Shown piece by piece: positions 21,918-55,040 of a stretch of DNA of 64,000 bases (positions are counted from its first letter, which is position 1; each line of letters begins with the position of its first letter). A program made the position numbers and the translations under genes. The stretch lies in contig NZ_CP095494.1 in NCBI RefSeq assembly GCF_023028105.1, positions 1 to 64,000 of the forward strand, in the 5' to 3' direction. A model generated the notes under the pieces. It did no database searches, was not told the DNA's origin, and saw nothing but the letters and a program-made list of their open reading frames with translations. The DNA is from Halosolutus gelatinilyticus (GTDB lineage Archaea > Halobacteriota > Halobacteria > Halobacteriales > Natrialbaceae).

Positions 21918-21919
21918 TC

Positions 21920-30693: not shown

Positions 30694-33600
30694 ATGACAC
30701 GAAAATCAACTCCGAACGACGCAAATAGCCGCTGGTCTCGGCTGATCGGCGGGATCAGCTCATCCATGCCGTCTATCAACTACGAAAAGTTTCGGATGGT
30801 GTTTCTTGCGATTGTCATGGTGGCGAGCACGGTCGCGATGCCGCTCTTATTCACAGGCGGAGTCCACGGAGCCACATCAAACCATACCGGATCGGCACTC
30901 GCTCAATCTACCGATGACACAAAATACGTCTATTCAGGTGATGGATCTGGAATTGTTAAAAAGATAGACCCCAGTGACCAATCTGTAGAATGTGAATATA
31001 CGGCACCAGACCGGATTGATGCCATTTATGCCCATCCTGACGGAGAAACAATTTATATCGGTGGATATGGCGGTTATATTCAGGCAGTAAACACTATAGA
31101 TTGTACGAGACAGTGGGTATACTCTGACTATGACGGAAATGCTGTATATGATTTCGCTGTTAATGGTGATGGGACCCTTTATGCCGGTGGGCATAATGGC
31201 AATGTAATAGCTCTTGACACTTCTGATGGATCGAAACTTTGGGAATACACCGGCCACACTAGCTCAGTTTCGGGAGTCGCATACAGTAACGGAAATGTGT
31301 ATTCTGGTTCGTGGGACAACACGCTCCGTGCTATTGACGCTGACACTGGAACTAGCAAGTGGGTATACGGTGGACACTCGTATTCAGTCCGGTCCGTTGC
31401 AACTGACGGGAATGGGACGGTTTTCTCCGGCGGGATAGATGGCGAAGTCCATGCCGTCCATGCGTCTGACGGTACTAACAAATGGAAGTACAACGGTCAC
31501 GGCTCGTCTAACGTTGAGGGCCTAACTGTTGGAGGGGACGGAACAGTATACACAGCCGCGAGAAACAACGAATCTCACTCGCTAAACCCCTCTGACGGAT
31601 CACGAAATTGGATTTATGACCACGGTGACGTGGTAAGTGATGTAGCTGCAAGCGGGGATGGAAGTGTATATACTGTAGGTAACTCTGAACTCCACTCAAT
31701 TTCCACTTCCAATGGTAGCAACGAATGGGTATTCACCGGGCATGCTGGTCCTATTAACGCGGTTGAAACAGCGTATAGTCCGTCAGTTGAATTGACAGAC
31801 CCAATCACCGGCCGCGTCACCAATCAACACGGCGACCCAGTTGATAACGCGACAGTTCTGGCTCATTCGATCACTGAACCCGCACTCGACGAGTCGGACG
31901 CCCGATCGCTCGAACGGCAAGCCAAAGACCTCCGAGACGAGCTCACGAACCCGCTCCCCGAGCAGTGGGACGAGGACTATGATCTCGATGCTCACATGGA
32001 GGGCGCGAGCGGGACGTACGCACTCGTGCACGCCCAAGATGACTGGGGCATTTCGTCGTGGTCAACGTCAGCCTCGTCGAACGTCGACGAGCCGAGACTC
32101 CAGGTTGACTCGGACCAAACGGTCATCATCTCACTGTGGGACCCTGACGAGGACGGCGGCTGGTTCGACAACCAAGTCGACAATTCGTTTCCCGGCTCCA
32201 CAACTGACGGCGAGATCACCATCCGGCAACTGAGTCCGACGGGCGAGCCGATCGACTCGACCACCCATGAAACAGAGGTCATCGCGACCACGACCGGCGG
32301 CCGGGTCTTCGGCGAAAACGAACATCACGGCGTCCGCGTCGACCTCCCACCAGGAGTCTACCAGGCGGTCCCGGAGGACCATCCCGGGCGCGGCTATACG
32401 TTCGTTGTCGGCTCACCGGACGAGCTCGCCCAAGAATTCCACGACGACCTCCGGGACGAAGCTGATCGGCTCACTCGGCGTACCGAGCGAATTCAGGACT
32501 TGCTGGCCGACGACGGCCTCGTGGTCGAGACCGCGCGTACGGACGCCAACGGCGAGTTCGCGATCGAAGCGCCGTCGAACGCCGTGACCACGGATCTCAA
32601 AGCGATGAAGGCTGACGGTACGATCCTCGAGACCGACGAAAACCCCGGTCTTGATGACCTCCGGAACGCCCAACTCTCCGACTACAACGGGTCGTTCTAC
32701 CTTCCGAATCCGGTGCCGAAAACCGTCGAACCACCCGCGGAGGACGTGCAAATCACGGTCTACCGATCACCCGAAGTCCCGCTGTCGGATATGGAGTCGT
32801 TCGCCGACTTGATGGCATTCCTCGATGAACAGCGGCTCAACGAGACAATTGGAGACCTCCGAAGCGAGTACGATCAACGATTCGACGAGATGGAGCGATC
32901 GACTCTCGAACGCGTCTACGCTGACCACCGCACGCTCGTCGAGACGGTCCCCGGCGCCAAGGATCGCTATCTCGATCGATCGGACTTCGATTCGATCCAA
33001 GACGCGGAGGGCCTTTCTACGGACGAACTGAGCGAGGAGACCTCGCATATGCAGGTCGCGCTCGCGAACGTCGGTCAGATCGACCCGCCGGAGATCGACG
33101 ATCCAGAGGACCTACTCGATATCGAGGACGGCCTCCTCTCCGGTGAGCATCCAATCCCTGACGGCGTCGAAGAGGACTCGATTAGCGTCGAACTCCATCC
33201 AGTTAATGGGGAGGGCGTCGAAGTCATCGACGAAGAGTATTGGTCGGTAGAGTCGGACGGCTTCTTTGGTGGCCGATCGGTCGTCGTCGAAGACTACCCG
33301 GTCGAAGCCGAGGACGCCGCAGCCTACCAACTGCGCGTCCGTGGGGCGGGCGAGGACGGCCTACTTGACTCACCGCTTCCGATCGCGAACCCCGCGTTCG
33401 ACGGCGAGGTACCCAACATCCGCGCAGTCGATGTGTCGACGCTCTCGCCCGGCCCCGACGAGCGCGTGAGTCTGACGTTTCGGGCTGATGAAGACGCCGG
33501 AATCGGCGGGATCGAATCGATCGAGGCGATCGGCCCTGACGGCGAGCAGGTCGACACGTCGATCGACGGCGATACTGCCCGCTTTACGACCAAGGGTGCG

Positions 33601-34293
33601 GGCGAGCACTTCGTTCGTGCGACGGTCACCGACGACACGGGCTCGCAATTCGTCAAATCGTTCAGCGTGCGCGCGTTGGAGCAACCCCGATCGGACCCAC
33701 CGACGGTGCGTGCCGAACGCGGCCCGATGGGACTCTACGCGCTTGCTGGCGAGGGCGTGGACGACGCCGAGATCGCTGTCGATGGTGATAAAGTCCGCGT
33801 ACGGGCGATCGTCCCCGGCGACGAGACGCCGGGAACGATCCACGTCAAACCCGATGCTGCGCTCTCGGGATCGGCGTACGAGATCGATGTCGCCGTACTC
33901 GCAGGTCCCGAGGAACGACAGGTCTCGACCAACCTCGAGACGGTGATCCATCTGGATAGCCTCTCGGAAGAGGCCACGCTCTTCCGCGGCGAAGCAAGCA
34001 CATGGGGCGACCCAATTGAGTGGGACGGCGGCAACCGCTATGGCGAGGTTGTCGAACGAGAGAACGGCAAGATAATTCTCCGTACGTACTCGAACGACAA
34101 CGGTCAAATCACGGTCTCGATCGACGAGGACCCGGGATTCATCCGATCGAACCAGTACCGGCTTGCGCAATGGATTCCGAGCTTCTCGATTCCATTCCTT
34201 GGATCGGCGATCATCCCGGCTGCCGGTGTGGCATCGGCGATTGGCACTGTCGGTGTGGGGCTTGTGGTCGGTCGACGGCGCGTTCTTCCCTAG
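30694..34293 (+). CDS. Giant surface protein A: beta-propeller head on conserved stalk
   Basis: A 1199-residue secreted protein. A basic leader (MTRKSTPNDANSRWSRLIGG) precedes a hydrophobic signal or membrane segment (about residues 32-56). Residues about 70-365 form a PQQ/WD40-like beta-propeller, with repeats such as GTLYAGGHNGNVIALDTSDG and WEYTGHTSSVSGVAYSNGNV. From about 368 the stalk shared with the gene at 34303 begins: a carboxypeptidase-regulatory-like unit (TGRVTNQHGDPVDNATV), a helical coiled region around 700-780, Ig-like units, and a C-terminal membrane span ending VGRRRVLP. DNA for the propeller is visibly AT-richer than the stalk. Likely a cell-surface or particle-surface adhesin, inferred from architecture. 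Confidence 0.7.
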   Translation: MTRKSTPNDANSRWSRLIGGISSSMPSINYEKFRMVFLAIVMVASTVAMPLLFTGGVHGATSNHTGSALAQSTDDTKYVYSGDGSGIVKKIDPSDQSVECEYTAPDRIDAIYAHPDGETIYIGGYGGYIQAVNTIDCTRQWVYSDYDGNAVYDFAVNGDGTLYAGGHNGNVIALDTSDGSKLWEYTGHTSSVSGVAYSNGNVYSGSWDNTLRAIDADTGTSKWVYGGHSYSVRSVATDGNGTVFSGGIDGEVHAVHASDGTNKWKYNGHGSSNVEGLTVGGDGTVYTAARNNESHSLNPSDGSRNWIYDHGDVVSDVAASGDGSVYTVGNSELHSISTSNGSNEWVFTGHAGPINAVETAYSPSVELTDPITGRVTNQHGDPVDNATVLAHSITEPALDESDARSLERQAKDLRDELTNPLPEQWDEDYDLDAHMEGASGTYALVHAQDDWGISSWSTSASSNVDEPRLQVDSDQTVIISLWDPDEDGGWFDNQVDNSFPGSTTDGEITIRQLSPTGEPIDSTTHETEVIATTTGGRVFGENEHHGVRVDLPPGVYQAVPEDHPGRGYTFVVGSPDELAQEFHDDLRDEADRLTRRTERIQDLLADDGLVVETARTDANGEFAIEAPSNAVTTDLKAMKADGTILETDENPGLDDLRNAQLSDYNGSFYLPNPVPKTVEPPAEDVQITVYRSPEVPLSDMESFADLMAFLDEQRLNETIGDLRSEYDQRFDEMERSTLERVYADHRTLVETVPGAKDRYLDRSDFDSIQDAEGLSTDELSEETSHMQVALANVGQIDPPEIDDPEDLLDIEDGLLSGEHPIPDGVEEDSISVELHPVNGEGVEVIDEEYWSVESDGFFGGRSVVVEDYPVEAEDAAAYQLRVRGAGEDGLLDSPLPIANPAFDGEVPNIRAVDVSTLSPGPDERVSLTFRADEDAGIGGIESIEAIGPDGEQVDTSIDGDTARFTTKGAGEHFVRATVTDDTGSQFVKSFSVRALEQPRSDPPTVRAERGPMGLYALAGEGVDDAEIAVDGDKVRVRAIVPGDETPGTIHVKPDAALSGSAYEIDVAVLAGPEERQVSTNLETVIHLDSLSEEATLFRGEASTWGDPIEWDGGNRYGEVVERENGKIILRTYSNDNGQITVSIDEDPGFIRSNQYRLAQWIPSFSIPFLGSAIIPAAGVASAIGTVGVGLVVGRRRVLP

Positions 34294-34302
34294 GCGATCA
34301 TC

Positions 34303-37300
34303 ATGACACGGAAATCAACCCCGAGCGACGCGAACAGCCGCTGGTCTCGGTTGGCTGGCACGATCAATCTATCCATGGCGTGTAGCGGACAACTCCGAGC
34401 GATCATACTCGCGTTTTTGATGGTCGCCTCACTTCCGGTGATGTCGATCGCGTACACTGGCTTCGGGGACGGTGGGACAGCAGTTGCCGCATCTGGAAAC
34501 AGTTCCGTGACTGACGGGTTCGAGAACTATGATTCGGGCACTACCCCGGGCGGCGATTGGGAGGATACAGGAACTGCTCCTTCTGAAGTCACAATGAATC
34601 AGTCCTATGAAGGTGACAAAAGTCTGCAAGTGGGGACCTCCTCCAACAATGGTAAGGTATTTTACAGGAACCAGTCCGTTCATGCGACTGACATTGACGT
34701 TTCTGTCACTATGTATTCTCATTCTACTTCCGAGACACGATTTGCATTGCACCCGGAAGGAACAGACGATTCCCGGGTCATTGTGTCTATAGTTGGCGGA
34801 GACTTGCAGATCTATGATGGTTCATTCACTGTGATTGACAGTAATGTTAACAACAACGAATGGGTGACGGTCCAGATAAACAATGTTGATCCATCTAACG
34901 ATACCTTTTCGCTCCGCTGGGAGTCGCCAAACTCGTCAGGAGAGGCTCACGATATAGGATCTGATGGGACGATACCTGACGGAAACTTGGACCCGGAATT
35001 GTATTCTGGCGCAGAAGCTCATTTTGATCAGTTTGGATATGGTATTGGATTAGGTGGATTTTCAGAGCCGATCACCGGAACCGTCGTTGATCAACACGGC
35101 GACCCAGTTGATAACGCGACCGTCGAAGCATGGGGGATCGCCGAACCAGCACTCGACGAAAATGACGCCCGATCGCTGAAACGCCAAGCCGAGGATCTCC
35201 GCGACGAACTCGCCGATCCGATCCCCGAGCAGTGGGACGCCGACTACGATCTCGACGCCCACATGGACGCGGACGGAACGTACGCACTCGTTCACAGTGA
35301 GAGCGATTGGGGCGTCTCGAGTTGGTCGACATCGGTCTCCTCGAACGTCGACGACCCACGCCTCCAGATCGACTCGGATCAGACGGTCGTGATCTCGCTG
35401 TGGGATCCCGCCGAAGACGGCGGCTGGTTCGACAATCAGGTCGACAATTCGTTCCCGGGCTCAACCACGGACGGCGAAATCACGATCCGGCAACTCGGCC
35501 CGACGGGAGAGTCGATCGACTCGACCACGTACGAGACCGAGGTGATCGCGACCACCACGGGTGGAAGAATCACCGGCGAAAACGAACACCATGGCGTCCG
35601 CACGCGACTCCCACCGGGCGTCTATCAGGCCGTCCCCGAGGGTCACCCCGAACGTGGATATACGTTCGTTGTTGGCGATCCGGACGAGCTGTGGCAGGCG
35701 TTCGAGTCCGACCTTCGTGACGAAGCGAACCGGCTGACCGGTCGCGCCGAGCGCATCCAGTCGATGCTCCAAGAGGAGACGATCGTCCGCGAAACGGCGC
35801 GTACCGACGAAAACGGCGAGTTCGAGATCGATATTGCGTCGGATGTGGTCACCGCGGACGTCCGCGCAATGAAAGCCGACGGCACGATTCTCGACGGCCT
35901 CGAAGATCCGTCACTCGACGATCTGCGCGAGGCACAAGCGGGCAACTACAACGGATCCTTCTATCTCCCATCGCCAACGCCGAACACTGTCGAACCGCCT
36001 GCGGAGGACGTCCAGGTCACAGTCTACCGGTCGCCGGAGGTTCCACTTGGGGATATGCAGTCGCTTTCGGAGCTGCTAGCCTGGCTTGAGGACCAACGCC
36101 TCAATGAGACGATAGAGGACCTCCAGAGTGAGTATGATCAGCGGTTCGAGGAGATGGAGCGATCGACGCTCGAGCGCATCTACTCCAACCACCGCATGCT
36201 CGTCGAGACGGTCCCCGGCGCCGAAGGTCGCTACCTCGATCGATCGTCGTTCGGCGAGATCCAAGACGCCGAGAGCCTGAGTACGAACGAACTCTCGACT
36301 GAGACGACCCATATGCAGGTCGCACTCGCGAACGTCGATCAGATCGAGCCGCCCGAGCTGCCGGATTCGCCGGACAACTTGATCGATCTTGAGGACGGTC
36401 ATCTCTCCGGCGAGACACCATTACCTCCCGGCGTCGACGAGGATACGATCGCCGTCGAACTCCTTCCGGCGAACGGGCAGGGAGTCGAGACGATCCCCGA
36501 GGAGTACTGGCACGTTGAGTCGGGACTTTTCGGCGACAACACGATCGTCGTCGAAGACTACCCGGTACAGGCGACCGATGCACCGGCCTACACGCTTCGG
36601 GTCCGTGCAGGCAGTGATGAGGGCTATCTCGACGATCGAATCCCGTTCGTGAATCCTGGATTCGACGGCGAAATCCCAGGAATTCGGGCGATCGACCTGA
36701 ATACACTTTCTCCCGGTCCCAACGAGCGCGTCTCGATGACGCTCCGGACGAGTGAAGACACCAGCGTTGATGGGATCGACTCGATTGACGTCTTCGGCCC
36801 CAACGGCGAGGAGCTCAACACGACGATCGACGGCGACACCACACGATTCTCCACCAACGGAAAGGGCAAGCACTTCATTCGGTTGGCGATCACCGACGAG
36901 ACTGGATCGACGTTCGTTCGATCTTTCAGCGTGCGTGCGTTGGAACAGAGTCGGTCAGACCCTCCGACGGTTCGGGCTGAACAAAGCACGACTGGTCCGT
37001 TCGCAATCGCCGGCGAAGGACTCGATGACGCGGAGATCGCCGTCGACGGCGATGAAATCCGGGTCCGGGCGATCGTTCCGGGCGGCGAAATCCCTGGAAG
37101 CATCCACGTCAAGCCGGACGCAGTGATGGACGGCGACACGCACGAGATCGATATCGCTGTGCTCGAGGGGACCGACGAACGGCAGATATCCACGAACGTG
37201 GAGGCGGTGATCCATCTCGACTCGATCGCCGAGGACGCCGACGTGTGGCGTGGGTCGCCGAGCTTGCTTGGCCAGCCGATCAAGTGGGACGGAGGCAGCC

Positions 37301-37557
37301 GCTACGGCGAGGTCATCAAACGCGAGAACGGGAAGGCGATCGTCCGGACGTACACGAACGACGATGGCGCGACGACCATCACGATTGAGGAAGATCCCGA
37401 TACGTGGCGATCGGCGCAGTACAGCATCGCGTCGAGGATCCCGAGATTCGATATCCCGTTCATCGGATCGATCGCGACGCCATCCGCGTTCGGTGGCATG
37501 TCGATCGGGGCGATTGGGATCAGCCTGGTCGTCCACCGACGCCGCACACTTCCCTGA
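34303..37557 (+). CDS. Giant surface protein B: jelly-roll-like head on conserved stalk
   Basis: A 1084-residue paralog of the preceding gene, starting nine bases after it. The leader (MTRKSTPSDANSRWSRLAGT) and hydrophobic segment match. Residues about 55-250 are unrelated to the propeller and look like a concanavalin/LamG-type jelly roll (SVTDGFENYDSGTTPGG, then NNEWVTVQINNVDPSNDTFS). From about 255 (TGTVVDQHGDPVDNATV) it tracks protein A to the C-terminal anchor (VHRRRTLP). The head-coding DNA is again AT-richer. Two different heads on one stalk suggest alternative ligands on host or partner surfaces. Many Asn-x-Ser/Thr sites would allow glycosylation. Confidence 0.7.
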   Translation: MTRKSTPSDANSRWSRLAGTINLSMACSGQLRAIILAFLMVASLPVMSIAYTGFGDGGTAVAASGNSSVTDGFENYDSGTTPGGDWEDTGTAPSEVTMNQSYEGDKSLQVGTSSNNGKVFYRNQSVHATDIDVSVTMYSHSTSETRFALHPEGTDDSRVIVSIVGGDLQIYDGSFTVIDSNVNNNEWVTVQINNVDPSNDTFSLRWESPNSSGEAHDIGSDGTIPDGNLDPELYSGAEAHFDQFGYGIGLGGFSEPITGTVVDQHGDPVDNATVEAWGIAEPALDENDARSLKRQAEDLRDELADPIPEQWDADYDLDAHMDADGTYALVHSESDWGVSSWSTSVSSNVDDPRLQIDSDQTVVISLWDPAEDGGWFDNQVDNSFPGSTTDGEITIRQLGPTGESIDSTTYETEVIATTTGGRITGENEHHGVRTRLPPGVYQAVPEGHPERGYTFVVGDPDELWQAFESDLRDEANRLTGRAERIQSMLQEETIVRETARTDENGEFEIDIASDVVTADVRAMKADGTILDGLEDPSLDDLREAQAGNYNGSFYLPSPTPNTVEPPAEDVQVTVYRSPEVPLGDMQSLSELLAWLEDQRLNETIEDLQSEYDQRFEEMERSTLERIYSNHRMLVETVPGAEGRYLDRSSFGEIQDAESLSTNELSTETTHMQVALANVDQIEPPELPDSPDNLIDLEDGHLSGETPLPPGVDEDTIAVELLPANGQGVETIPEEYWHVESGLFGDNTIVVEDYPVQATDAPAYTLRVRAGSDEGYLDDRIPFVNPGFDGEIPGIRAIDLNTLSPGPNERVSMTLRTSEDTSVDGIDSIDVFGPNGEELNTTIDGDTTRFSTNGKGKHFIRLAITDETGSTFVRSFSVRALEQSRSDPPTVRAEQSTTGPFAIAGEGLDDAEIAVDGDEIRVRAIVPGGEIPGSIHVKPDAVMDGDTHEIDIAVLEGTDERQISTNVEAVIHLDSIAEDADVWRGSPSLLGQPIKWDGGSRYGEVIKRENGKAIVRTYTNDDGATTITIEEDPDTWRSAQYSIASRIPRFDIPFIGSIATPSAFGGMSIGAIGISLVVHRRRTLP

Positions 37558-37566
37558 GGTGATTCC

Positions 37567-39150
37567 ATGCAACGCAGACAATTCCTATCGACGATCGGAG
37601 CAACGGCAGTCGCAAGTACAACCCCATCGTTCATCGGCCCGATTCGGCTCTCGACACCCGAGGTACTGACACCGCTGGCACTCGCTGACGACGTGGATCT
37701 CGACACGTTCGGCACTGAAGGCAACCCGTCGTTCGCTCTCCGCTACGAAAGCGCCGAGGACCGCACGGACCTCCGAAAGTGGGTCGAGTCGACCGACGAG
37801 GGGCACGTGATTCGCGACCTCAAATCGGTCAATATGATCGTCGCAACGGTTCCGTGGTCCGAGGCGGGCCGATCGCGCAAGTTCGGCATCGAGACCTTCG
37901 ACGGCGGATTCGACGACCTTTCGTACCTCGAATTTGCCGACGCGAATACGTTCTTCGAGCGCCCGGAACCGATCGGTCCGGACGGCCTCGCGAGCAGTGC
38001 AGATGACGTGAGCCACGATCTTCGGCTACGTGATCGAATCTCGATCGCGGCCCGAACCGGGCGGACAAGCGTCTCGGACGGTATCGACGGCCTCGCGTTC
38101 GACGGCGACGCACCAGAAACGAATCTCCGGAACGCGCGCCGACACGTACGCGCGGGCGACGGAGTACTCGACACGGTCGATACGTCGACTGCTCGGGTGA
38201 CGATCGCTGATACCGGTGCTGACGACGGCGCACACTTCGATGCCGGTGACGGCACGCTCCGGTTTCATGACGACTCGACCGACTATACCGGCGTCGACGA
38301 TCCGACGGTCGGTGAGGATGGTGCGAGTGCGGTCGCCGACGGAGACGGCCACGGAAGTTGGGTGTCCGCGTGTATCGGCGCGAACAACGCCGACGGCCGG
38401 TACTCCGGGTTCGTTCAGGATGCCGAGTTGGTGATCGCGAAGGTACTCGGCGATGACGGTAGCGGATCGATCGGCGATATCGTCGCCGGCGTCGAGCTGG
38501 CGATCGAGACCAATTCGGACGTGCTCTGCATGTCACTCGGGTCGGCACAATGGTCCGACGCGTTGGCCGCGGCGCTGGCCGACGCGTGGGAGGCGGGCGT
38601 CTTCCCCGTGGTCGCGAGCGGCAACGATCGCTATGCGACGACGTTCGTGGCGCACCCAGCGTCGGCGGAGGACGGCTTCGCGGTCAACGCGACGAACGTC
38701 CCCGAATCAGAGGACAGGGACGACACGGAGATCGCGTACTTCGGGAACGTCGGGCCACACAGCGGCATCGGCGACCTCTCGAACGGCGAATCGGAAGGCG
38801 CGACGCCGCAACTCGCGGCACCGGGTATGAATATCAAAATCGAACCGGTCGGGACGCTGACCGGCACGAGCATGGCCGCACCGATGGTCGCCGGCGCCGC
38901 GGCCGTGCTCGCTGCCGACGGCCACGACAACGAGACGATCCTTGATCGACTCACGACGTGTGCGTACCCGATCCCGAACGCGGGCTACACCGAGACCGAA
39001 AACGGGCTGCTCGACCTTGAAGCGGCGCTCAACGGCGACGAGTACGAGGAAGAACAGGCCAACGTCCGATCGGAAGAAGCCGAGATTCGGGATACGATCA
39101 ACGAGGCCTATTCGGAGACGCGGGGCCGAAAACTCGCTGGGTTGTTCTGA
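37567..39150 (+). CDS. Subtilisin-like serine protease (S8), Tat-exported
   Basis: A 527-residue protein. It begins MQRRQFLSTIGATAVAS, a Tat-like signal with a weak twin-Arg, followed by a propeptide-like region. The S8 triad is complete: Asp about 215 (TIADTGADD), His about 262 (GDGHGSWV) and Ser about 435 (GTSMAAPMVAGAAAVL), with the oxyanion Asn in VASGND. It follows giant protein B by nine bases, so it is probably co-expressed. A role in processing the surface proteins is inferred. Halolysin-type nutrition is an alternative, but the operon context argues against it. Confidence 0.85.
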   Translation: MQRRQFLSTIGATAVASTTPSFIGPIRLSTPEVLTPLALADDVDLDTFGTEGNPSFALRYESAEDRTDLRKWVESTDEGHVIRDLKSVNMIVATVPWSEAGRSRKFGIETFDGGFDDLSYLEFADANTFFERPEPIGPDGLASSADDVSHDLRLRDRISIAARTGRTSVSDGIDGLAFDGDAPETNLRNARRHVRAGDGVLDTVDTSTARVTIADTGADDGAHFDAGDGTLRFHDDSTDYTGVDDPTVGEDGASAVADGDGHGSWVSACIGANNADGRYSGFVQDAELVIAKVLGDDGSGSIGDIVAGVELAIETNSDVLCMSLGSAQWSDALAAALADAWEAGVFPVVASGNDRYATTFVAHPASAEDGFAVNATNVPESEDRDDTEIAYFGNVGPHSGIGDLSNGESEGATPQLAAPGMNIKIEPVGTLTGTSMAAPMVAGAAAVLAADGHDNETILDRLTTCAYPIPNAGYTETENGLLDLEAALNGDEYEEEQANVRSEEAEIRDTINEAYSETRGRKLAGLF

Positions 39151-39151
39151 C

Positions 39152-39976
39152 ATGTCGATGATGACGCGTCGATCGGTGCTCCAGACGGGCGGGACGATCG
39201 CCTTCTTTGGCTGGTGGCCGTTCGGGTCGGACGAGGACGATGATGATCGCGACGACGATCTAAAGTACGACACTAACGGTATCCCTGAGTTTCCTGAGCA
39301 CATCACTGCTCGCGATGACCTCGGCGACTTGGAGAACTACCAGCCGCGACTCGTGGTCGGGTCCCAACAGGCGAGACACGATATGCAGGGGATGTACGGA
39401 TGGATCGCCGAGAGCGAGGAGCACGACGTCGACGCGTACTATTACTGGATCCGATCGAACACCCAGCGATCGATCTTTCAGCACCTCTTTGGATTGGATA
39501 TTGAGTTCAAGGATACGCATTACCTCGATCACGAGCCGATCATCGTCTTCGTCAACTCGGACGGGACAGTTGACAAGGTCGTCTACACGGCCGGCCACCA
39601 CCTCGCGGCAGAACTTGATGGCGAGTGGGGCCGGTTAATCGAGGATCGCGTTGCCGACCGACGAACACACGTCGTCCTCCGGCAAGTCCGGCCGCACAAC
39701 CACTTCATGGAGGCTTCAAGCCTGGAGGACGGTGTCTGGGTCCAGGGCTTCGCAGAGTTCGATAGTTGGCTCGATCGACGAGAAACGTGGTACCGAAACG
39801 GACGCTACGACAACACGGCCAATGTCGCCGTCATGGACCCATTCGAGTTCTACGAGAGCGACGGACGCACGTTCTGGTGGGCTGACGGGACGACCGATGC
39901 GTGGCTCGCGAAAAACGTCTACGTGCGACGGCTCACGATTGGCGATGAACGTGACGAACTTCGATTCGAGGATTGA
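39152..39976 (+). CDS. Tat-exported hypothetical protein
   Basis: A 274-residue protein from the ATG at 39152. The start MSMMTRRSVLQTGGTIAFFG fits a Tat signal, followed by an Asp-rich stretch. The mature part is rich in aromatic and His residues (QQARHDMQGMYGWIAES, then TAGHHLAAELDGEWG, then RQVRPHNHFMEA). Clustered His could bind metal, but no known enzyme motif is complete. It begins two bases after the protease ends. Function unknown; probably an extracytoplasmic component of the same system. Confidence 0.6.
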   Translation: MSMMTRRSVLQTGGTIAFFGWWPFGSDEDDDDRDDDLKYDTNGIPEFPEHITARDDLGDLENYQPRLVVGSQQARHDMQGMYGWIAESEEHDVDAYYYWIRSNTQRSIFQHLFGLDIEFKDTHYLDHEPIIVFVNSDGTVDKVVYTAGHHLAAELDGEWGRLIEDRVADRRTHVVLRQVRPHNHFMEASSLEDGVWVQGFAEFDSWLDRRETWYRNGRYDNTANVAVMDPFEFYESDGRTFWWADGTTDAWLAKNVYVRRLTIGDERDELRFED

Positions 39977-40110
39977 TACCATGACACGACACGCAATCCG
40001 CTACACAGTTGGAGGGATCCCACCACCCCCAGTGGTTCCACCGCCGATAAAACCCTACCACACGACGAGCACCAATCGCCGACCAACCCCTTCATCCGAA
40101 CCTCATTCCA

Positions 40111-41136
40111 ATGAGACCAATCATCAAGAAAGTCGCAACGCTGTTTCTCGTCCTGGCGCTCGTCACGGGCGGCATGGCAGCGTTCGCAGGCACCGCAGCC
40201 GCAGACACCACGACCCTCGCCGGCGACGGCACCGACACCGTTACCGGATTCAACGCATCGTCATCTGACTACATCGAACGCTCGATCAACGCCGACGACG
40301 GTACGAACGGCTTCGACGGCGACGGGACCGAGACGCTGTTCATGAACGTCTCATACGACGGCCACGACTACGCCGAGATCTCTGCGGCCGTCGACGACGG
40401 AACGGCGACGAGCCAGACGGTCAACATGAGCCATGACAAGCTCAAAAAGCTGCCCGGTGATGCCGGTAAAGTCACGACGGTCAACGTCACCACCTGGGGC
40501 GAGAATGCCTCGGGCGACACCACGACGGCGGCGACCGAGTTCTCGGTCGATATCACGTTCGCCGACGACCACGCCGTTCGAACGATCCACTCATCGAACA
40601 ATTCGATCGTCGAGAACATCGAATTGTCCGACGACGATGACGATGGCTGGGTAGCCTCACTGTCAAGTCTCAACCCGCTGTCGAGCAGCGACGAGCTCGT
40701 GACGATCGAGGATGACGTCGGGATCGCCGGCTCGCAGACCGACATCAAGGTCTACTCCGAGGATTCCGACGTGACCGAGGTCATCGACAACCAACTCGAA
40801 GACAGCGAGGACGGCGATCGCGTCGGGATGTTCATGACCAGCGAGGTCGGCGACGGCATCGTGTACGTCTTCGCCAACGAACCCGGTGAGACGATCACCG
40901 GCGACGAGGTCGACGAGGATAAGGATACCTACATCGTCGCCCACGAGGGCGGCCAGATGGACGTTAACCTCGGGTCGGACGACTTCGACGACACCGACGA
41001 GACGGCCTCGCTCTCGCTGACCGCGGGAGAGAAGTTCGATCGCAAAGCACTCCAAGACGATCTGGGCTACTCGTGGAGACAGGCATACGGCCTGAGCTTC
41101 GACACGTTTAGTCTGAGCGATCTCTGGCCGTTCTGA
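40111..41136 (+). CDS. Secreted acidic surface protein
   Basis: A 341-residue protein with a classical Sec signal (KKVATLFLVLALVTGGMAAF, cleaved after GTAAA). The mature chain is Asp/Thr-rich beta structure (GTDTVTGFNASSSDYIERS) with a second half around TDIKVYSEDSDVTEVIDNQL. No C-terminal membrane span is seen, though the last residues are hydrophobic (FDTFSLSDLWPF). It resembles a surface-layer or virion structural protein in composition, without a recognisable family. 134 bases precede it, the largest gap in this operon, so it may have its own promoter and high expression. Confidence 0.55.
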   Translation: MRPIIKKVATLFLVLALVTGGMAAFAGTAAADTTTLAGDGTDTVTGFNASSSDYIERSINADDGTNGFDGDGTETLFMNVSYDGHDYAEISAAVDDGTATSQTVNMSHDKLKKLPGDAGKVTTVNVTTWGENASGDTTTAATEFSVDITFADDHAVRTIHSSNNSIVENIELSDDDDDGWVASLSSLNPLSSSDELVTIEDDVGIAGSQTDIKVYSEDSDVTEVIDNQLEDSEDGDRVGMFMTSEVGDGIVYVFANEPGETITGDEVDEDKDTYIVAHEGGQMDVNLGSDDFDDTDETASLSLTAGEKFDRKALQDDLGYSWRQAYGLSFDTFSLSDLWPF

Positions 41137-44207: not shown

Positions 44208-44543
44208 ATGCCAAATTCAGGACGAAAACCTCGAGGACAGAATCGTAGTCGAACCAGTACCGGAGGTCCACGCATCGAGAACTTCGAACGGTGGCTCTTC
44301 CGGGCCACAGGAAAAGTGCTGTTCCTGTTCATTTTCTGTGCATTCATCTTCATCGGGATGACCCACGATTTGTTGTTCATCGTGGCTCTCGCGGGGATCG
44401 CCGTATTCCTCTGGGGTGCGGTGATCTTCCCGACCCAAGAGTTCAAACAGACGGGTCAGTACCTCTGGAGCGGCCGCGCCGGCGAGGATGTCCACAGCCT
44501 GTGGTGCCGGATCTTGCCGTGGCGAGGGGGTGGTCGTCGATGA
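44208..44543 (+). CDS. Small membrane protein
   Basis: A 111-residue protein. A basic N-terminus (GRKPRGQNRSRTSTGG) is followed by two spans (KVLFLFIFCAFIFIGMT and LLFIVALAGIAVFLWGAVIF) and a short tail with Trp/Cys (VHSLWCRILPWRGGGRR). Its stop overlaps the ATG at 44540. It is the fourth consecutive small basic membrane protein, which suggests a membrane scaffold or coat made from several different subunits. Confidence 0.55.
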   Translation: MPNSGRKPRGQNRSRTSTGGPRIENFERWLFRATGKVLFLFIFCAFIFIGMTHDLLFIVALAGIAVFLWGAVIFPTQEFKQTGQYLWSGRAGEDVHSLWCRILPWRGGGRR

Positions 44544-45454
44544 CGCGCTCGATCCAACTCGCGTTGGCGATCGCGCTCGTGGTCTCCGTTGTCGTGCCAA
44601 TCGGCGCGGCGGGCGTGGCGGCTGCCGAAGAGGAGCGTCAGTGTTCGACAGAGGTCTCACACGACGGGTTCCTCACCGACGAGGCCGTGCTCGAGGAGTA
44701 CAACCAAAGCGGATCAGCGTCGGATGTCGAGCACAATACGCGCCTGACAATCGAGGAAACCTCGGCGTTCTACAGGCTGCAAGCCGAGAACCCGAATTCA
44801 TACTGCGTTCACATCACTGCGGAGGTCTCGGCAGAGATCCTCCCGCCGACGAATCTTGGCACCGTCGAGTCGAACAACGGGAACACGAAAGCGGAGTGGA
44901 TCGATATCCACGACTTCGACCAACAGGAGGCCCATACCGAGATATCGTTCGTGATGCCCTCGAATTCGACCGTGCTGTTCGCTCCCTCGAAGCCGACGGT
45001 GCTCCTCCCAGCATGGCGAGATAGCCGAAAGCACGATGCAGAGGGAATCATCAAGACAGTCTCTGAGTGGCTGGGGGATGGCGATCTCGAAAAGCGCACG
45101 TACACGTTCACAGCAGACGGTTCTCCGTCGGTGACGGTCCCGCTGGTGAATGACGAGAATGACGAACAACGGATCGACGATTGGAACGCTGTCTACCGGA
45201 CGTCGAAGTCTGAGCCATGGGCGCCGGTCGATCGGAACAGCGACGATCCGGTGTTCTACCAGGAGGTCGACGATGGTGAGAAAATCCGATTCTATTTCAA
45301 CGACGAGACCGCCGAAGTTGAGTTCAAAGCCAACCCGACTGTACCGGATAAGGCGATCGCCGAGTACCGATCGTTCCGCCGATCGCTCCACGATCTCGGC
45401 GACTTCTGGCCGTTCGGAATGGTCGTCCCGATCTCCGGGGTGGTGACATGGTAA
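44540..45454 (+). CDS. Sec-exported protein, possible spike-like ectodomain
   Basis: A 304-residue protein from the ATG at 44540. A Sec signal (LALAIALVVSVVVPIGAAGV, ending AAAEEE) precedes a beta-rich ectodomain (HITAEVSAEILPPTNLGTVE, then RTYTFTADGSPSVTVPLV) with Cys at RQCSTEV and SYCVHIT. The C-terminal end is only mildly hydrophobic (FWPFGMVVPISGVVTW), so it may anchor in the membrane or be held by the next protein. Its stop overlaps the following ATG. Function unknown. Confidence 0.55.
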   Translation: MTRSIQLALAIALVVSVVVPIGAAGVAAAEEERQCSTEVSHDGFLTDEAVLEEYNQSGSASDVEHNTRLTIEETSAFYRLQAENPNSYCVHITAEVSAEILPPTNLGTVESNNGNTKAEWIDIHDFDQQEAHTEISFVMPSNSTVLFAPSKPTVLLPAWRDSRKHDAEGIIKTVSEWLGDGDLEKRTYTFTADGSPSVTVPLVNDENDEQRIDDWNAVYRTSKSEPWAPVDRNSDDPVFYQEVDDGEKIRFYFNDETAEVEFKANPTVPDKAIAEYRSFRRSLHDLGDFWPFGMVVPISGVVTW

Positions 45455-46360: not shown

Positions 46361-47074
46361 ATGAAATCGCACACAAATACGAACCACGAGCAACGGCGAT
46401 CGGAGCTCGCAGAGCTTCGGCGAGAACTGCGCGATAAACAGGGGTACCTGAGCGACGACAGCGAGGAGCTGTGGAAGGCGATTTCCCAGTGGATCCTCGA
46501 GTCCTACAACGTCCCCGTCGGCAGCTTACAGACGAAGGTCCAGACGGAAATGGCGGAACTACAGGACGACCCGTTGCACAAGATGTATGATCATGCCGAC
46601 GTCGACGACGGGGAAGAAGCATTCCCCAAGCGGTGTAAGGGCTGTCCCCACTACGGCGTACAGTGCCCGCCGCTGGCCCGGTACCACCCGAAGAAAACCT
46701 TCGAGCGGATCCTCGACGAATCGGAGGACGACGACGAATTGCAGGCGGAACTGTCCGCCTACGCGGCGAAACACCATTGCAGCGTCCTACAGGAGATCAT
46801 TTCAGAGTGGGAACGCGGGTACGCGAACTTCCTGAGCCGCGGTGAGCAACTCCGAACCCTCCTGAACGCGGATATCAAGGGGATTGATTTGGAGACCGTC
46901 AACGGTCTCGAACTGGAGTTCGAGAGCCCCGGTGACGCCCTCTCCAGCCCCGCGACGCCGTCGCCGTCGACGGCAGCAGGTCACGGTGATGAGCCGCCGG
47001 CGGAAGCGGCTGAACGGATCGAAACCGTTACGGAGTCGATCATGACTGAGGACGAAACCGAGGGAGAAGCATGA
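46361..47074 (+). CDS. Cysteine/histidine cluster protein
   Basis: A 237-residue soluble acidic protein. It begins with a helical region (RRSELAELRRELRDKQGYLS). Around residue 92 it has CKGCPHYGVQCPP, followed about 45 residues later by KHHCSVLQEI; four Cys and nearby His could bind zinc or an iron-sulfur cluster. The C-terminal third is low complexity (SSPATPSPSTAAG). The stop overlaps the next ATG. Function unknown. Confidence 0.5.
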   Translation: MKSHTNTNHEQRRSELAELRRELRDKQGYLSDDSEELWKAISQWILESYNVPVGSLQTKVQTEMAELQDDPLHKMYDHADVDDGEEAFPKRCKGCPHYGVQCPPLARYHPKKTFERILDESEDDDELQAELSAYAAKHHCSVLQEIISEWERGYANFLSRGEQLRTLLNADIKGIDLETVNGLELEFESPGDALSSPATPSPSTAAGHGDEPPAEAAERIETVTESIMTEDETEGEA

Positions 47075-48120
47075 TCGACGTGCGGAGTGCGATAATCGCC
47101 GCGATTGCGGTGCTGGCCGTCGTCGGGATCGGGTACCTCCTCTGGATGCGCCGATCGTCGTTGAACGGCGATCGCGAGCAGATCGAACGCACCCAAGAGG
47201 ACCTCCGGATGGAGTCCAAGAACGCACAGCGTCCCGAACGCGTCGGGTTCACGACTCGGGCGCGGGTCCAACCGACGACGACGCTGCTCTTCTTTGGTTC
47301 TGTGGCCGCGTTCCTGCTCGTCATCTTGGTCGGTGCGTATCAAATGGCGAAGTCGGGCAGTCCGTCGGAAATGGCGTACGCCGATCAGATCGAATTCGCG
47401 ATTTCGATACTGATAGCCGTCGCGGCCGGCGTCTGGTTCAAGATGCGGTTAGACAGCAAGGCCGGCGAATTGAATATCACGTACGAAGGCGAGACGTCGA
47501 ACGCGTCTGAGACGTACTACTACGATCGGAATCTCGTCCAGCCGCTGTTTGACGATAAAGGGGATCGCGACGCGCTCTTGGTACCGGTCTTCAAGAAGAA
47601 TCGGATTCTGGGGCTGTTCTGGTCGCCGAAACTGACGGCTGACGACGACAAAGCGCGCGATCTCGACAAGAACCTCCCTGGCGATCAAGTGACGTACGAA
47701 GTCCCGCTCGACCAATCGTCGACGTGGGACCAAGAAGAGGCTCGTATCACCGTTCGGGCAAAAGATGACAGTCTCATTTCGAATCCCGATCGGCGGGCAA
47801 CGTACGAGTTCGTCCCGTCTGATCGGAAATCTGGCGCCGAAATCCAGACTATGAAAGACGAGATCGAGCAGCTTCGGAAGCACCTCGATCACGAGCGCCG
47901 GCTGAACGGCACGCACACCGAGATGATCGAGGCGATGGAGGAAGCCCTGGAGAACCGCAACCACGGCAGCCTCGAACACCTCGACGACGCGAAAAAGATG
48001 TTCCTCGATATCATCGAATCGGTGAACACCGACCACGATCGGCGATCCGATCGCTCCGAGTCTCGGAACGACTCACGTGATGGAGTGCTGACCTCGCGGA
48101 GTACGGCGAAGGCCGAGTAA
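47071..48120 (+). CDS. Membrane protein with cytoplasmic coiled coil
   Basis: A 349-residue protein. Hydrophobic spans lie at about residues 5-25 (IIAAIAVLAVVGIGYLLW), 70-92 (TLLFFGSVAAFLLVILVGAY) and 107-125 (IEFAISILIAVAAGVWF). A beta-rich domain follows (YEVPLDQSSTWDQEEARIT), then a coiled coil (MKDEIEQLRKHLDHERRL, about 260-305) and a charged tail. It may link the membrane proteins to cytoplasmic partners such as the ATPase. The start overlaps the previous stop. Confidence 0.55.
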   Translation: MIDVRSAIIAAIAVLAVVGIGYLLWMRRSSLNGDREQIERTQEDLRMESKNAQRPERVGFTTRARVQPTTTLLFFGSVAAFLLVILVGAYQMAKSGSPSEMAYADQIEFAISILIAVAAGVWFKMRLDSKAGELNITYEGETSNASETYYYDRNLVQPLFDDKGDRDALLVPVFKKNRILGLFWSPKLTADDDKARDLDKNLPGDQVTYEVPLDQSSTWDQEEARITVRAKDDSLISNPDRRATYEFVPSDRKSGAEIQTMKDEIEQLRKHLDHERRLNGTHTEMIEAMEEALENRNHGSLEHLDDAKKMFLDIIESVNTDHDRRSDRSESRNDSRDGVLTSRSTAKAE

Positions 48121-48139
48121 CACCACCGATTTCACACCA

Positions 48140-49498
48140 ATGAAAACACACACCCAGAGAGTCGTACGGCTAGTCCTCGCTGCACTGCTCGTCCTGAGCG
48201 CGATCGGCGCCGCGGCGCCGGCCGTTAGCGCAGCGGGGACGTCGGCGACTCCCGACCCCGTATTGGCTGTCCAAGAGAACGGAAACGCGACTGTGAACGA
48301 TACTGCCGGCCCGACCGAGGCCTCGCAGGTCCGGCTCACACCAGATATCCCTGACGCGGACTGCGTGTCGATCGAGACGGTCGAAAGCGACGAGACGTAC
48401 AACACGAGCGGAACGTTCGCGACCTTCTCACTCTCGCAACCGGCCGAATCCGTCCGGGTAAACGAACCCGGAGCAGAGGCCACCGTCATCGGCGACGGAT
48501 CGGTTGTCCGCGTCGAGTACGGGCCCGACGCGGCGCCGAGGGATTCGGTTTCGCTGTTCTCGCTCGAGCTGTACTTCGCCGACGAGAGCACGAAGACGGT
48601 CGAACTCTACGCGACGAATACGGACGTCTCGGCGAATACAAGGATCGACCCGTCCTACCTCGGATTCATCGAGTACGTCGAAGGGAAAGCCGAAGAGGAG
48701 GGCTACGAGACCAATCCAGACGGGCTCGAAGCGTACGTCACAGACACCGAGGAACGAGCGCAATTCTTGGAGGGGCTCTGGACTGACCAGATCAACACGT
48801 TCATCAGCCTCCGTATCGCGCAGTTGTTCTCGCCTCTCGACTGGATTGCACTGATCGCGGTTATCGCGGGACTGTCGCTGTTCGCGATGCGGAAACACGA
48901 GTGGGTCCTTCGAGCACAACAGATCGCGACCTCGAAGGCAGCACTCGCTCGCGAGGCGGTTCGACAGGAACACGAGAAACAGCGGAACGCAGCGGCGAAG
49001 CACGCTCTCGAAGAGGTTGAGGGGATCGGACGGAACGACGCTCGCTACTGGAAGAACGTCGGGATCGAGACCGTCGACGACATGATACAGGTCGCCTGCC
49101 GCGGGATCGTCGCCGTCGACGAGGACGGCCATATCGTGCAGGACGAGAACGGCAACGACGTCTTCGAACATCACGGTGTGGACGACCTCAAGACACTCGA
49201 CCCAATCACCGAGAAAGGCCTGCGCGAGAAGACGTGGCTGAAGCCGCTCATCGTCGAAGGCCGGCTTCGAGCGACGACGGCACTATCGAACATCGAACGG
49301 GCGCTGTTGACAGCAGAGCGGGACTACTCCCGCGGAAACGAGGTTCGCGAAACGAGGATGCAGGTCCAAGAGATGATCGCCGAACTCCGCGGTGAGCGCG
49401 AGTTCGCGAACGCGAAGACGTCGACGTACGGACCGCGCGAACTACCGAGCGCAGACACGCCACGAGACAACGCAAGCGGTGCTACGGGGGCTGATTAG
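48140..49498 (+). CDS. Exported single-span protein with cytoplasmic HhH-like domain
   Basis: A 452-residue protein. A Sec signal (LVLAALLVLSAIGAAAPA) precedes an ectodomain with Asn-glycosylation-type sites. A membrane span lies at about residues 230-252 (LDWIALIAVIAGLSLFAM). The cytoplasmic part has a helical arm (EAVRQEHEKQRNAAAKHALE), a helix-hairpin-helix-like element (VEGIGRNDARYWKNVGIETV), and a helical tail. An HhH could contact DNA or act in protein contacts, so this protein may span the envelope and reach the DNA side. It is directly followed by the 707-residue membrane protein. Confidence 0.55.
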   Translation: MKTHTQRVVRLVLAALLVLSAIGAAAPAVSAAGTSATPDPVLAVQENGNATVNDTAGPTEASQVRLTPDIPDADCVSIETVESDETYNTSGTFATFSLSQPAESVRVNEPGAEATVIGDGSVVRVEYGPDAAPRDSVSLFSLELYFADESTKTVELYATNTDVSANTRIDPSYLGFIEYVEGKAEEEGYETNPDGLEAYVTDTEERAQFLEGLWTDQINTFISLRIAQLFSPLDWIALIAVIAGLSLFAMRKHEWVLRAQQIATSKAALAREAVRQEHEKQRNAAAKHALEEVEGIGRNDARYWKNVGIETVDDMIQVACRGIVAVDEDGHIVQDENGNDVFEHHGVDDLKTLDPITEKGLREKTWLKPLIVEGRLRATTALSNIERALLTAERDYSRGNEVRETRMQVQEMIAELRGEREFANAKTSTYGPRELPSADTPRDNASGATGAD

Positions 49499-51622
49499 AT
49501 GAGTCTCGATTTACTCGATCGCGATCCGCACGACCCGAACCCAGGTATCAAAACGCGAATCGTCCGTCGAATCCTCGGCGATCCTCGCAAGGCTCCGACC
49601 CGGCTTATCGGCGCCGCGATCTTCGTCCTGATCGGGGTTATCGTCGCCGGCGTGTGGGCAGTGATTCAAACCGAGACCACGACCTCATCATCGTCCTACT
49701 GGTTCGTCCGGCTCGTGGGGAGCATCGTCAACACAATGTGGGTGCTCGTCCCCGTCGCGATCTACCTGTTCTGGCGCTATATCGGGGTGCTTCGGAAGCG
49801 ATACGCCGAGTCGGCCGCCGAGATCACGGGATGGCTTCCGGAGTCGATCGAGCACCTGTCCGACGAAATGCGATCGACCGATCGGACGACGCGTGTCATC
49901 GCCACAACCGATCACTCGTTCGAGGAAATCAGGTCGAACGTCGACGCAGCCCTCCGCGGTGAACCCCACGAAGGCGAAGTTGTCGACTACTACGGACGGT
50001 ACGAATCGAACAACGGTGACGGTCAGCCGGAGGCCCCGGCGTCGGACGATAGCGATCTCGAGTCCCGCCTCGACGAACTCTCGGCTCGCGAGACCGAACT
50101 GATCGAGGAGTACAACCGAAAAACCGAGCGGATCGACGATCTTCTCGATGACGCCCTCGGTGCCGATCTCGACCTCAGTGATCCCTCGGCACTCGACGAT
50201 CGGGTGTCGATGTACGATCTCATGGATGGGGGCGGCCAAGACGCCGTCGACGAAGCTGACCAGCTTCTCGAGGAGTGCGAGGCGATCGAACAGGAACTCG
50301 AATCGGTCCGCGACGAACTGGCCGCCGTCCGCGCCGAGATCGAGTCGGAAATCGAACCCGAGAGCGATCTGGATGTACGGTCCCGAGGCCATGATGATGT
50401 GTACGCTCTCCCGGAACCGGAACCGGAAACGGACGACGACCACAGCACCGATCGAGTCGCATCGGATCGCCAGTCGATCGGGGACGTATGGGCCAACGCG
50501 GACGGGCTACGTGCCAAAGGTCGAGCGGTCGTCGGCCACTGCTATCGGAGGGCGGTAGACGTCGCAATCGCGTCGATCGGCTGGATTGTCGGGCTGATCG
50601 CGGGCGTTCTCGGTACGATTGCGAACCTCGTCTCGGGTAGTCCTGGCGATGAACCGGAAGACGAGGACGAGGTCCCGTGGAAGGTCCGATTTGCGGAGGA
50701 ACTCAAACACTTGGTTCTCGATCTGAACGCGGGACTGCACTCCGATGACCTGCTCTGGAAGTTCGGACTGCCGGCGTTCGTGACGTTCGTTTCGCTGCTG
50801 ATCCTCGCCCGTCTGTGGGTGCATCCGATCCTTTACATCGTCTTCATCGCGATCGCGATCCTCGTCGGCCTGTTCACGTTCTGGGTGTCGAAAAAGCGCC
50901 GATCGAGGCGGCTGCAAATCCACCGACAGCCGGAGGAGTGGAGCTACTGGGACGACGCCGCCGGCCGCGTGAAAACCGTCGAGACGGCGGACGTAGAGTG
51001 CTATATGGGCTGGCTTCCCGGTCGTCGGTACGTGTCCTACGATCGCGAGGAGTTCATCACCGAGTTCTCGCTTCGACTCTATCAGCTCACCCACGACGAA
51101 AAGGTCTCCCCGTCTGTACTGGAGCAGTACGCCCGAAACATCGCTCAGATGAAGCCGAATCTCCGGGGCCACTTGGAGCAGACCGAGAAGCCGGCAATCC
51201 AACAGGAGATCAAAACGGTCGTTGAGGACGCCCCCGAGCAGGTGATCGACAAAGCTGGCCTCGCGATGGAGGTGATCGAGCACCCGCACGAGGATAAGCG
51301 GCTGTCGTCCGATCTTGGCCACGACCCACGACTTGTCGCAGACGAATACCGCTGGCTCGTCGAAGAGGGTCACGTTCTCGAAGAGATCGACGTCGAATTT
51401 GAGGATGCGAGTGGCCGAACAACGACGAAAACGCTCGTCTACCCGGCCAAAAAGAAACGGCTTCCTGATATGGAGGCGCTGCACTCGCAGTTCTCCGATC
51501 GGTTCACCGGATCACACGGCGATCCCTACTACAACCTCCCCGAGTGCAACCCGACCGAAGATCTTCGCGGGTTCGTCCCGTCGCCGCGGGCGGCACAACT
51601 GTTCGAAACTGGGGGTGTATAA
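49499..51622 (+). CDS. Large multi-span membrane coiled-coil protein
   Basis: A 707-residue protein whose ATG abuts the preceding stop. Spans occur near residues 36-58 (LIGAAIFVLIGVIVAGVWAV), 72-95, 355-380 (ASIGWIVGLIAGVLGTIANL) and 425-470 (FVTFVSLLILARLWV and the next segment). Between them is a long acidic coiled coil (about 180-285, including LLEECEAIEQELESVRDELA). The C-terminal cytoplasmic domain (about 480-700) includes WSYWDDAAGRVKTVETADVE and a helical region. It may be the inner-membrane platform of a translocation machine, and it directly precedes the ATPase gene. Confidence 0.55.
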   Translation: MSLDLLDRDPHDPNPGIKTRIVRRILGDPRKAPTRLIGAAIFVLIGVIVAGVWAVIQTETTTSSSSYWFVRLVGSIVNTMWVLVPVAIYLFWRYIGVLRKRYAESAAEITGWLPESIEHLSDEMRSTDRTTRVIATTDHSFEEIRSNVDAALRGEPHEGEVVDYYGRYESNNGDGQPEAPASDDSDLESRLDELSARETELIEEYNRKTERIDDLLDDALGADLDLSDPSALDDRVSMYDLMDGGGQDAVDEADQLLEECEAIEQELESVRDELAAVRAEIESEIEPESDLDVRSRGHDDVYALPEPEPETDDDHSTDRVASDRQSIGDVWANADGLRAKGRAVVGHCYRRAVDVAIASIGWIVGLIAGVLGTIANLVSGSPGDEPEDEDEVPWKVRFAEELKHLVLDLNAGLHSDDLLWKFGLPAFVTFVSLLILARLWVHPILYIVFIAIAILVGLFTFWVSKKRRSRRLQIHRQPEEWSYWDDAAGRVKTVETADVECYMGWLPGRRYVSYDREEFITEFSLRLYQLTHDEKVSPSVLEQYARNIAQMKPNLRGHLEQTEKPAIQQEIKTVVEDAPEQVIDKAGLAMEVIEHPHEDKRLSSDLGHDPRLVADEYRWLVEEGHVLEEIDVEFEDASGRTTTKTLVYPAKKKRLPDMEALHSQFSDRFTGSHGDPYYNLPECNPTEDLRGFVPSPRAAQLFETGGV

Positions 51623-51624
51623 CC

Positions 51625-54078: not shown

Positions 54079-54080
54079 CC

Positions 54081-55040
54081 ATGAATCGAGACGAATCCAA
54101 GATCAAAGACGAGTACCACACGCTCGTCCGTGACGTCTTCGAGGGGGTTGTACGTGAGGTCAACAGCCACTACCCCGCGGAGCGATCGGTCCGACTCGAC
54201 TGGGAACGGATCAGAGAGTTCGACAAGACGATCGCGAAGACGTTCCTTCGGAACCCGCAGCGGGCGCGCGGCAGTACCGCGGAAGCGATCGAGTGCTGGA
54301 ACGAGGTCGATATCCCGGACTCGATCGTCCGTGTGCACAACATCCCCGACGAGTACCAGTTCCGCGTCGGGAAGCAGCGAACGATCCATCTCGGTCGGCT
54401 CATCACGATTACCGGCGAGGTCGTTGAAATGGACGGCGTCAAACCGTTCGCGAAGATGGCCGCACTCGAATGCCACCAGTGTGGGACGCTGAACTACGTT
54501 CCCCAATCGTACGGGAAGATGATCGACCCGCACGCGTGTGAGGGTTGTGAGAAAAAATCCGGTCCGTTCCTGTTCCGGCGACAGCAGTCGGAACTGCTCG
54601 ACTACCGCAAGGTGATCCTCCAGCGCGCGGATACAAATCTTGACGACGATCCGCCACAGCTCGCCGTCTATCTCACCGAGGACCTCGTCGATCGGATCGG
54701 ACCTGGAGATCACGTCTCGCTCGTCGGCTACTACGATACCGGCCGCATTCAGAAAAAATCAGTTCTCCAAACGTACCTTGAGACGTGGGATATCGAGTCT
54801 CACGAGGAAGGCGTGCTCGCCGATCGACTCTCGCCGGATGAGCTTGCCGACGCGATCTGCGAGGAAGTCGAAGCGAAACAGGACGAAGACCCGTCGTCGT
54901 TCGGCGCCGATCGCGAGGCAATCATCGAAACACTCGTCGACGAAGGTGTCCGCCGCAAGGAAGTCGAGTCACAACTGGAGGACCTCATCGATCAGAAGGA
55001 AATCAGCGAGATCGGCGGCGGCAAACTGATGGTTACGTAG
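54081..55040 (+). CDS. MCM N-terminal-domain protein without AAA+ motor
   Basis: A 319-residue protein with the layout of the archaeal MCM N-terminal region: a helical domain (FDKTIAKTFLRNPQRARG), an OB fold (RTIHLGRLITITGEVVEM) and the four-Cys zinc finger (ECHQCGTL, then ACEGCEKK, about residues 132-160), then KVILQRADTNLDDDPPQLAV. The AAA+ helicase core is absent; instead there is an acidic helical segment and a C-terminal winged helix (AIIETLVDEGVRRKEVESQL). It should bind single-stranded or melted DNA without unwinding it. It may direct element DNA to the ATPase or interfere with host MCM. It is the last gene of the run. Confidence 0.75.
   Translation: MNRDESKIKDEYHTLVRDVFEGVVREVNSHYPAERSVRLDWERIREFDKTIAKTFLRNPQRARGSTAEAIECWNEVDIPDSIVRVHNIPDEYQFRVGKQRTIHLGRLITITGEVVEMDGVKPFAKMAALECHQCGTLNYVPQSYGKMIDPHACEGCEKKSGPFLFRRQQSELLDYRKVILQRADTNLDDDPPQLAVYLTEDLVDRIGPGDHVSLVGYYDTGRIQKKSVLQTYLETWDIESHEEGVLADRLSPDELADAICEEVEAKQDEDPSSFGADREAIIETLVDEGVRRKEVESQLEDLIDQKEISEIGGGKLMVT

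Follow-up and report, generated by a model that had tools for sequence, protein, structure and literature searches.

Two genes for giant surface proteins, here called A and B, lie head to tail in Halosolutus gelatinilyticus, and they raise the question of how neighbouring proteins come to share both ends with nothing in common between, and what the differing parts might do. The first-pass annotation read them as paralogs with a common leader and stalk and swapped heads. Throughout, the window is the whole stretch of DNA analysed, 64,000 nucleotides long (NZ_CP095494.1, positions 1 to 64,000, forward strand); it sits on an 88,308-base contig in an assembly of 4 contigs. Both reading frames proved to be open where that annotation had placed them, 9 bases apart, and a subtilase gene begins next at 37567. 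The two genes, homologs of the plasmid gene ORF6 discussed below, are laid out as follows.

30694..34293, + strand: ORF6 homolog A, 1199 aa; leader, beta-propeller head, conserved stalk and C-terminal membrane anchor
30694..30864, + strand: leader of A; signal/hydrophobic segment at about residues 36-53; GC3 0.68
30865..31794, + strand: head A, a PQQ/WD40-type beta-propeller; GC3 about 0.41
31795..34290, + strand: stalk A; transmembrane segment and RRR at the C-terminus; 72% nucleotide identity to stalk B
31823..31853, + strand: 31-bp exact match to B at the head-stalk junction; codes for QHGDPVDNAT
34303..37557, + strand: ORF6 homolog B, 1084 aa; in the canonical place directly 5′ of ORF7
34303..34458, + strand: leader of B; hydrophobic segment at about residues 33-50; GC3 0.69
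34459..35061, + strand: head B, all-beta, weakly carbohydrate-binding-module-like; GC3 about 0.46
35062..37554, + strand: stalk B, with C-terminal membrane anchor
35090..35120, + strand: 31-bp exact match to A at the head-stalk junction

When A and B were compared by BLASTN, two blocks aligned and no others. The leader block (nucleotides 1-82, 79% identity, E 3e-15) belongs to a similarity that begins 2 bases 5′ of the ATG and ends near 30775 in A and 34384 in B; the stalk block (1092-3513 against 750-3168, 72% over 2429 bp, E 0) begins near 31785 and 35052, and the encoded stalks are 70% identical over 817 residues. The proposed correspondence of the leaders and of stalks of about 800 residues is borne out by these figures, as is the claim that unrelated heads lie between them, since the heads gave no alignment at the DNA level between flanks of 79% and 72% identity. 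The only repeats bordering the heads of A and B are the paralogous leader and stalk blocks themselves, and an invertible or repeat-flanked head cassette was rejected on this ground. The head-stalk junction had been singled out for a nearly identical stretch of about 29 bases. That identity is real and amounts to 31 bases; the coordinates originally given for B were off by 2 to 4. It is the longest exact run of the stalk alignment and mildly unusual (codon-shuffle P 0.034), and QHGDPVDNAT is a conserved motif that opens the stalk throughout the ORF6 family. Because of this P value and the family-conserved coding motif, we dropped the idea of a crossover scar and do not count junction identity as evidence of exchange.

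The plasmid pR1SE is transferred in plasmid vesicles that it encodes itself. A and B match ORF6 of Halorubrum lacusprofundi pR1SE (phmmer, E 1e-74 and 8e-75) and both carry the conserved C-terminal stalk of that family; a stalk search of plasmid proteins returned 17 haloarchaeal plasmids, pR1SE among them. From 30694 to 54078 the window is collinear with pR1SE, with core homologs from ORF6 through ORF25 in unchanged order (numbers counted off from the pR1SE annotation). ORF6 (twice), ORF7, ORF8 and ORF9 follow in order at 30694-41136, as in cluster 1 of such elements; homologs of ORF17, 21 and 23-25, which make up cluster 2, lie downstream at 44291-54078, again collinear with pR1SE; and the region between the clusters holds variable genes at 41.2-44.5 kb. 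Judged by homology and gene order, A and B are two copies of ORF6, the biggest of the structural surface proteins of such elements, in a complete pR1SE-type plasmid-vesicle element (apHPV), whose further genes are these.

37567..39150, + strand: ORF7 homolog, a subtilase (S8) peptidase
38942..39976, + strand: ORF8 homolog; true start probably 3′ of the listed TTG
40111..41136, + strand: ORF9 homolog; matches ORF9 homologs of two other elements
44291..45454, + strand: ORF17 homolog; start probably near 44537
46361..54078, + strand: cluster 2
46361-47074, + strand: ORF21
47071-48120, + strand: ORF22
48140-49498, + strand: ORF23
49499-51622, + strand: ORF24
51544-54078, + strand: ORF25
54075..55040, + strand: protein with an MCM OB domain, conserved with the Halomontanus rarus element

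The ORF9 homolog gave no direct match to pR1SE ORF9 at 1e-4 and is linked to it via two intermediate elements. By synteny the nearest core is that of Halomontanus rarus plasmid NZ_CP119801. Its single ORF6 bears a head homologous to head B, so copy A, with the propeller, is probably the one that was added. Between the window and H. rarus, amino acid identity is 66% for the ORF17 homolog, 29% for head B and 33-42% for ORF7-9, which places the variable surface part of this pair in cluster 1 and not in ORF17.

Upstream of the vesicle core the window carries CRISPR-Cas genes (Cas6, TM1802/Cas8-type, Cas5, Cas3 and Cas1; 13519-22915) and, directly 5′ of the core, an array of 56 repeats and 55 spacers (23278-26914). 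Within the array, spacer 35 is identical to spacer 36 and spacer 8 nearly identical to spacer 34; the plasmid spacers gave no match to the fetched relatives. A protein of three homing-endonuclease-associated HNH repeats is encoded at 28903-29445 (Pfam E 1e-60).

If heads are exchanged, their history should part from that of the stalks, and the first-pass annotation had named co-evolution of the two as the observation to look for. Stalk homologs were found in 36 of the 392 genomes of the order that were searched, plasmid records were added, and 50 non-redundant ORF6 proteins were each divided into head and stalk. The head cores fell into 19 groups (phmmer E 1e-10; a few group limits, L077 included, hinge on the automatic leader trim). 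The stalk tree joins A and B as sisters (support 100%), though their head families differ. The propeller label changes 11 times on this tree, at least 8 of the changes being forced by well-supported branches, and its scatter resembles that of shuffled labels (104 of 500 shuffles were as low). In AU tests the head data rejected the stalk clade L035/L036/L087/L088 (p 1.3e-4), and the stalk data rejected head groups at p 3.5e-5 and 7e-9, both groups having been picked after the head results were seen; two other stalk pairs were not rejected by the head data (p 0.62 for WA+L039), and the head tree inside the propeller class is mostly unresolved. Across the 50 homologs, then, tree and AU tests show that heads and stalks do not evolve together. 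ORF6 combines a constant shaft, a variable tip and incongruent histories, the marks of an exchangeable tip.

The cleanest case is an independent pair, pR1SE ORF6 and L077, which repeats the picture of A and B with the same borders. Leader DNA is 79% identical over 555 bp and stalk DNA 81% over 2681 bp; the heads, one a propeller and the other not, show no match. With sister stalks under unrelated heads in the window and this second clean case, modular exchange of heads between conserved flanks, as first proposed, holds up. In pR1SE and its relatives the in-frame ORF6 reaches about 200 residues further 5′ and includes several hydrophobic segments (L032:5912-6600, L077 leader). Since this upstream in-frame part is 79% conserved in DNA, the RefSeq start of pR1SE ORF6 at 7502 probably lies too far 3′, leaving a shortened protein that lacks its head.

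A second element with two ORF6 genes, about 35% identical to each other, was found on a Halorussus vallis plasmid (G102 C5, matching NZ_CP100004), where one lies 5′ of ORF7 and the other between ORF8 and ORF9 (L110:6121-9609, L070:3104-7048). The fetched loci held no further tandem ORF6 pairs, with two candidates scored per genome outside the family, so that further copies may be missed there; IMG/VR yielded no relative with the patterns used. Elsewhere, ORF6 and the ORF7 subtilase are fused in one reading frame of 2067 aa (L071:2814-9017).

The heads of A and B had also been described as AT-richer than the stalks, and they are, at 44-54% GC against 58-67% (overall 48% against 62% in both genes). 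This composition step runs through the ORF6 family as a whole and is no peculiarity of A and B. Of 50 genes, 49 have a head with lower GC than the stalk (p 6e-14), and in the 42 genes outside a solitary set GC3 falls from 0.68 (leader) to 0.50 (head) and climbs to 0.76 (stalk), with leader above head in 39 of them (p 2.5e-11); the p-values overstate the evidence because related genes are not independent, and the pattern still holds across deep branches. The step sought at the head boundaries is thus present at both borders. Other long core genes of three elements, taken as a control, have no such stretch, and codon bias at 5′ ends was rejected as the source of the AT-rich heads; the cause may be either that heads are renewed from an AT-rich pool or that mutation is biased locally.

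The step is absent from the eight solitary ORF6 copies, which have no adjoining ORF7 (L040, L043, L049, L052, L056, L057, L075 and L088:16182-19103). An ORF8-like gene is present with L043. Most of the eight lack the C-terminal anchor as well as the step, and mostly they occur alongside another ORF6 in the genome or plasmid; possibly they are domesticated or exclusion copies.

As to what the heads are, a match of head A to Pfam PQQ_2 (E 2e-23) bears out the beta-propeller seen there at first. The jelly-roll-like fold suggested for head B is plausible and unproven. Weak resemblance to CBM_4_9, a sub-threshold hit (E 0.012), and to a xylanase carbohydrate-binding module in the PDB (E 0.007) speaks for it; no family was significant, and AlphaFold returned no usable model of full-length B (pLDDT 45) or of head B alone (pLDDT 36). 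The heads are rich in Y, W, G, S and N, a make-up that would be compatible with binding surfaces, and they stay acidic (D+E 16%, K+R 4%), so that their donors were probably halophiles. A protein search of the genome for silent cassettes found no second copy of head A, the best chromosomal propeller being 26% identical. A diversity-generating retroelement was ruled out by the lack of any reverse transcriptase (RVT_1) in the genome in a search whose controls were detected. No solved structure came out as significantly related to the stalk.

Part of this was on record. ORF6 has been detected in vesicles by mass spectrometry and is predicted to be glycosylated (PMC10818511, PMC10384203), and Luecking et al. 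2023 describe a conserved C-terminus and a highly diverse N-terminus, which carries WD40 in about 56% of the homologs (PMC10818511); that heads are diverse was thus already known. Searching the text of this publication for ORF6 paralogs or duplications gave nothing (PMC10818511). What is new is the tandem pair with unrelated heads within one element, the clean natural head swap between the close relatives pR1SE and L077, the scatter of head types over the stalk tree with shared history rejected by AU tests, and the drop in GC3 at both head borders in cluster ORF6 genes.

The reading that we favour, at a probability of roughly 0.6, is that ORF6 was duplicated, that a head was replaced, and that the heads are exchangeable adhesion or receptor-binding modules on an anchored stalk. 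Duplication within the element would have given A and B, to which their sister stalks attest, and at least one copy would then have had its head replaced, to which the unrelated heads between conserved leader and stalk attest. A hydrophobic leader is present at the N-terminus of nearly all ORF6 proteins, and in many of them a hydrophobic segment near the C-terminus is followed by arginines; from sequence and hydropathy, each protein is predicted to be secreted and anchored in the vesicle or cell membrane by its C-terminal end, the stalk pointing outward and the N-terminal head sitting at the tip or close to it. The most likely function of ORF6 is thus that of a surface protein anchored in the vesicle and bearing an adhesion head that can be exchanged. 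Heads would move between elements by recombination in leader and stalk. Two copies would let one element display two specificities, and with its two unrelated heads this element may make two-headed vesicles.

Given exchange, topology and residue make-up together, the most parsimonious reading, we infer, is a head that serves adhesion or receptor binding, and this suggests that vesicles of pR1SE type may change what they recognise through head exchange. The putative resemblance of head B to carbohydrate-binding modules counts weakly in its favour. Against it stands the published guess that ORF17, and not ORF6, recognises the host, made in a paper that calls the role of ORF6 unresolved (PMC10818511). 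Host N-glycosylation made no difference to how efficiently the vesicles infected (PMC10384203), an argument against N-glycans as the receptor that leaves room for a protein or lipid one. Offered more tentatively is a stronger version, in which plasmid vesicles would change target by drawing AT-rich head cassettes from a reservoir that is dedicated to this end and continually renewed, and those of this element would bear two unrelated heads at once; the composition island is found in ORF6 of full elements and is absent from solitary copies, which would tie head renewal to the vesicle life cycle.

Instead of recognising hosts, the heads could bind other vesicle or coat proteins, as WD40-type scaffolds do in eukaryotic vesicle coats, and vary as their partners vary. 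The original reading of ORF6 was that of a WD40-bearing coat protein (PMC10818511), and ORF7-9 diverge strongly between close elements (33-42% amino acid identity, where most of cluster 2 keeps 58-78%), so that co-variation may extend to the whole of cluster 1. We nevertheless consider such a scaffold unlikely: hydropathy places the head outside the membrane, the opposite of cytosolic coats; heads differ altogether between elements whose stalks are 81% identical; and the window element has two unrelated heads for one ORF7-25 set. Still less probable is a role in competition between elements, by surface or superinfection exclusion or evasion, with a second or solitary copy blocking related vesicles. 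Solitary copies, without ORF7-9 and the composition step, do reside mostly with another ORF6 or a full element, but two apHPVs can coexist in one host (PMC10818511), and A adjoins B inside the structural cluster rather than standing apart. That the heads are homologous and merely diverged very fast under diversifying selection is hardly credible and largely refuted: homologous heads do evolve faster than stalks (46% against 78% identity between the solitary copies L049 and L052), and local mutation could yield the composition bias, but the propeller and head B have no profile similarity (hhalign probability 0.1%), the heads of pR1SE and L077 show no detectable match between flanks of 79-81% DNA identity, and similar heads (49% over 224 aa) sit on stalks only 22% identical.

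The data thus point to the ORF6 head as a putative swappable specificity module, where the published candidate for target choice is ORF17. Host recognition by a virus-like plasmid becomes directly testable in laboratory haloarchaea, and the GC3 island between leader and stalk offers a sequence signature for finding such modules.

Among known systems, ORF6 of pR1SE and other apHPVs (PMC10818511) agrees with A and B in family (E 1e-74), in its order before the S8 peptidase ORF7 and in its pattern of conserved C-terminus and variable N-terminus; the window differs in having two tandem copies with unrelated heads in one element. Diversity-generating retroelements likewise target variability to the binding domain of a surface protein, binding being putative for ORF6; they mutate single positions with a reverse transcriptase, whereas in ORF6 whole domains are replaced and no reverse transcriptase is present. 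Pleolipovirus spikes are, as is predicted for ORF6, C-terminally anchored surface proteins of a membrane vesicle-like haloarchaeal particle. Tip exchange in phage tail fibres and receptor-binding proteins shares with ORF6 a conserved shaft, an exchangeable terminal domain, recombination in the flanks and mosaic composition. ORF6, however, is predicted to be membrane-anchored, belongs to a vesicle-borne plasmid with no tail, has its variable part at the N-terminus, and its receptor binding is putative. If the favoured reading is true, non-viral vesicles have evolved a modular exchange of tips like that of phage tail fibres.
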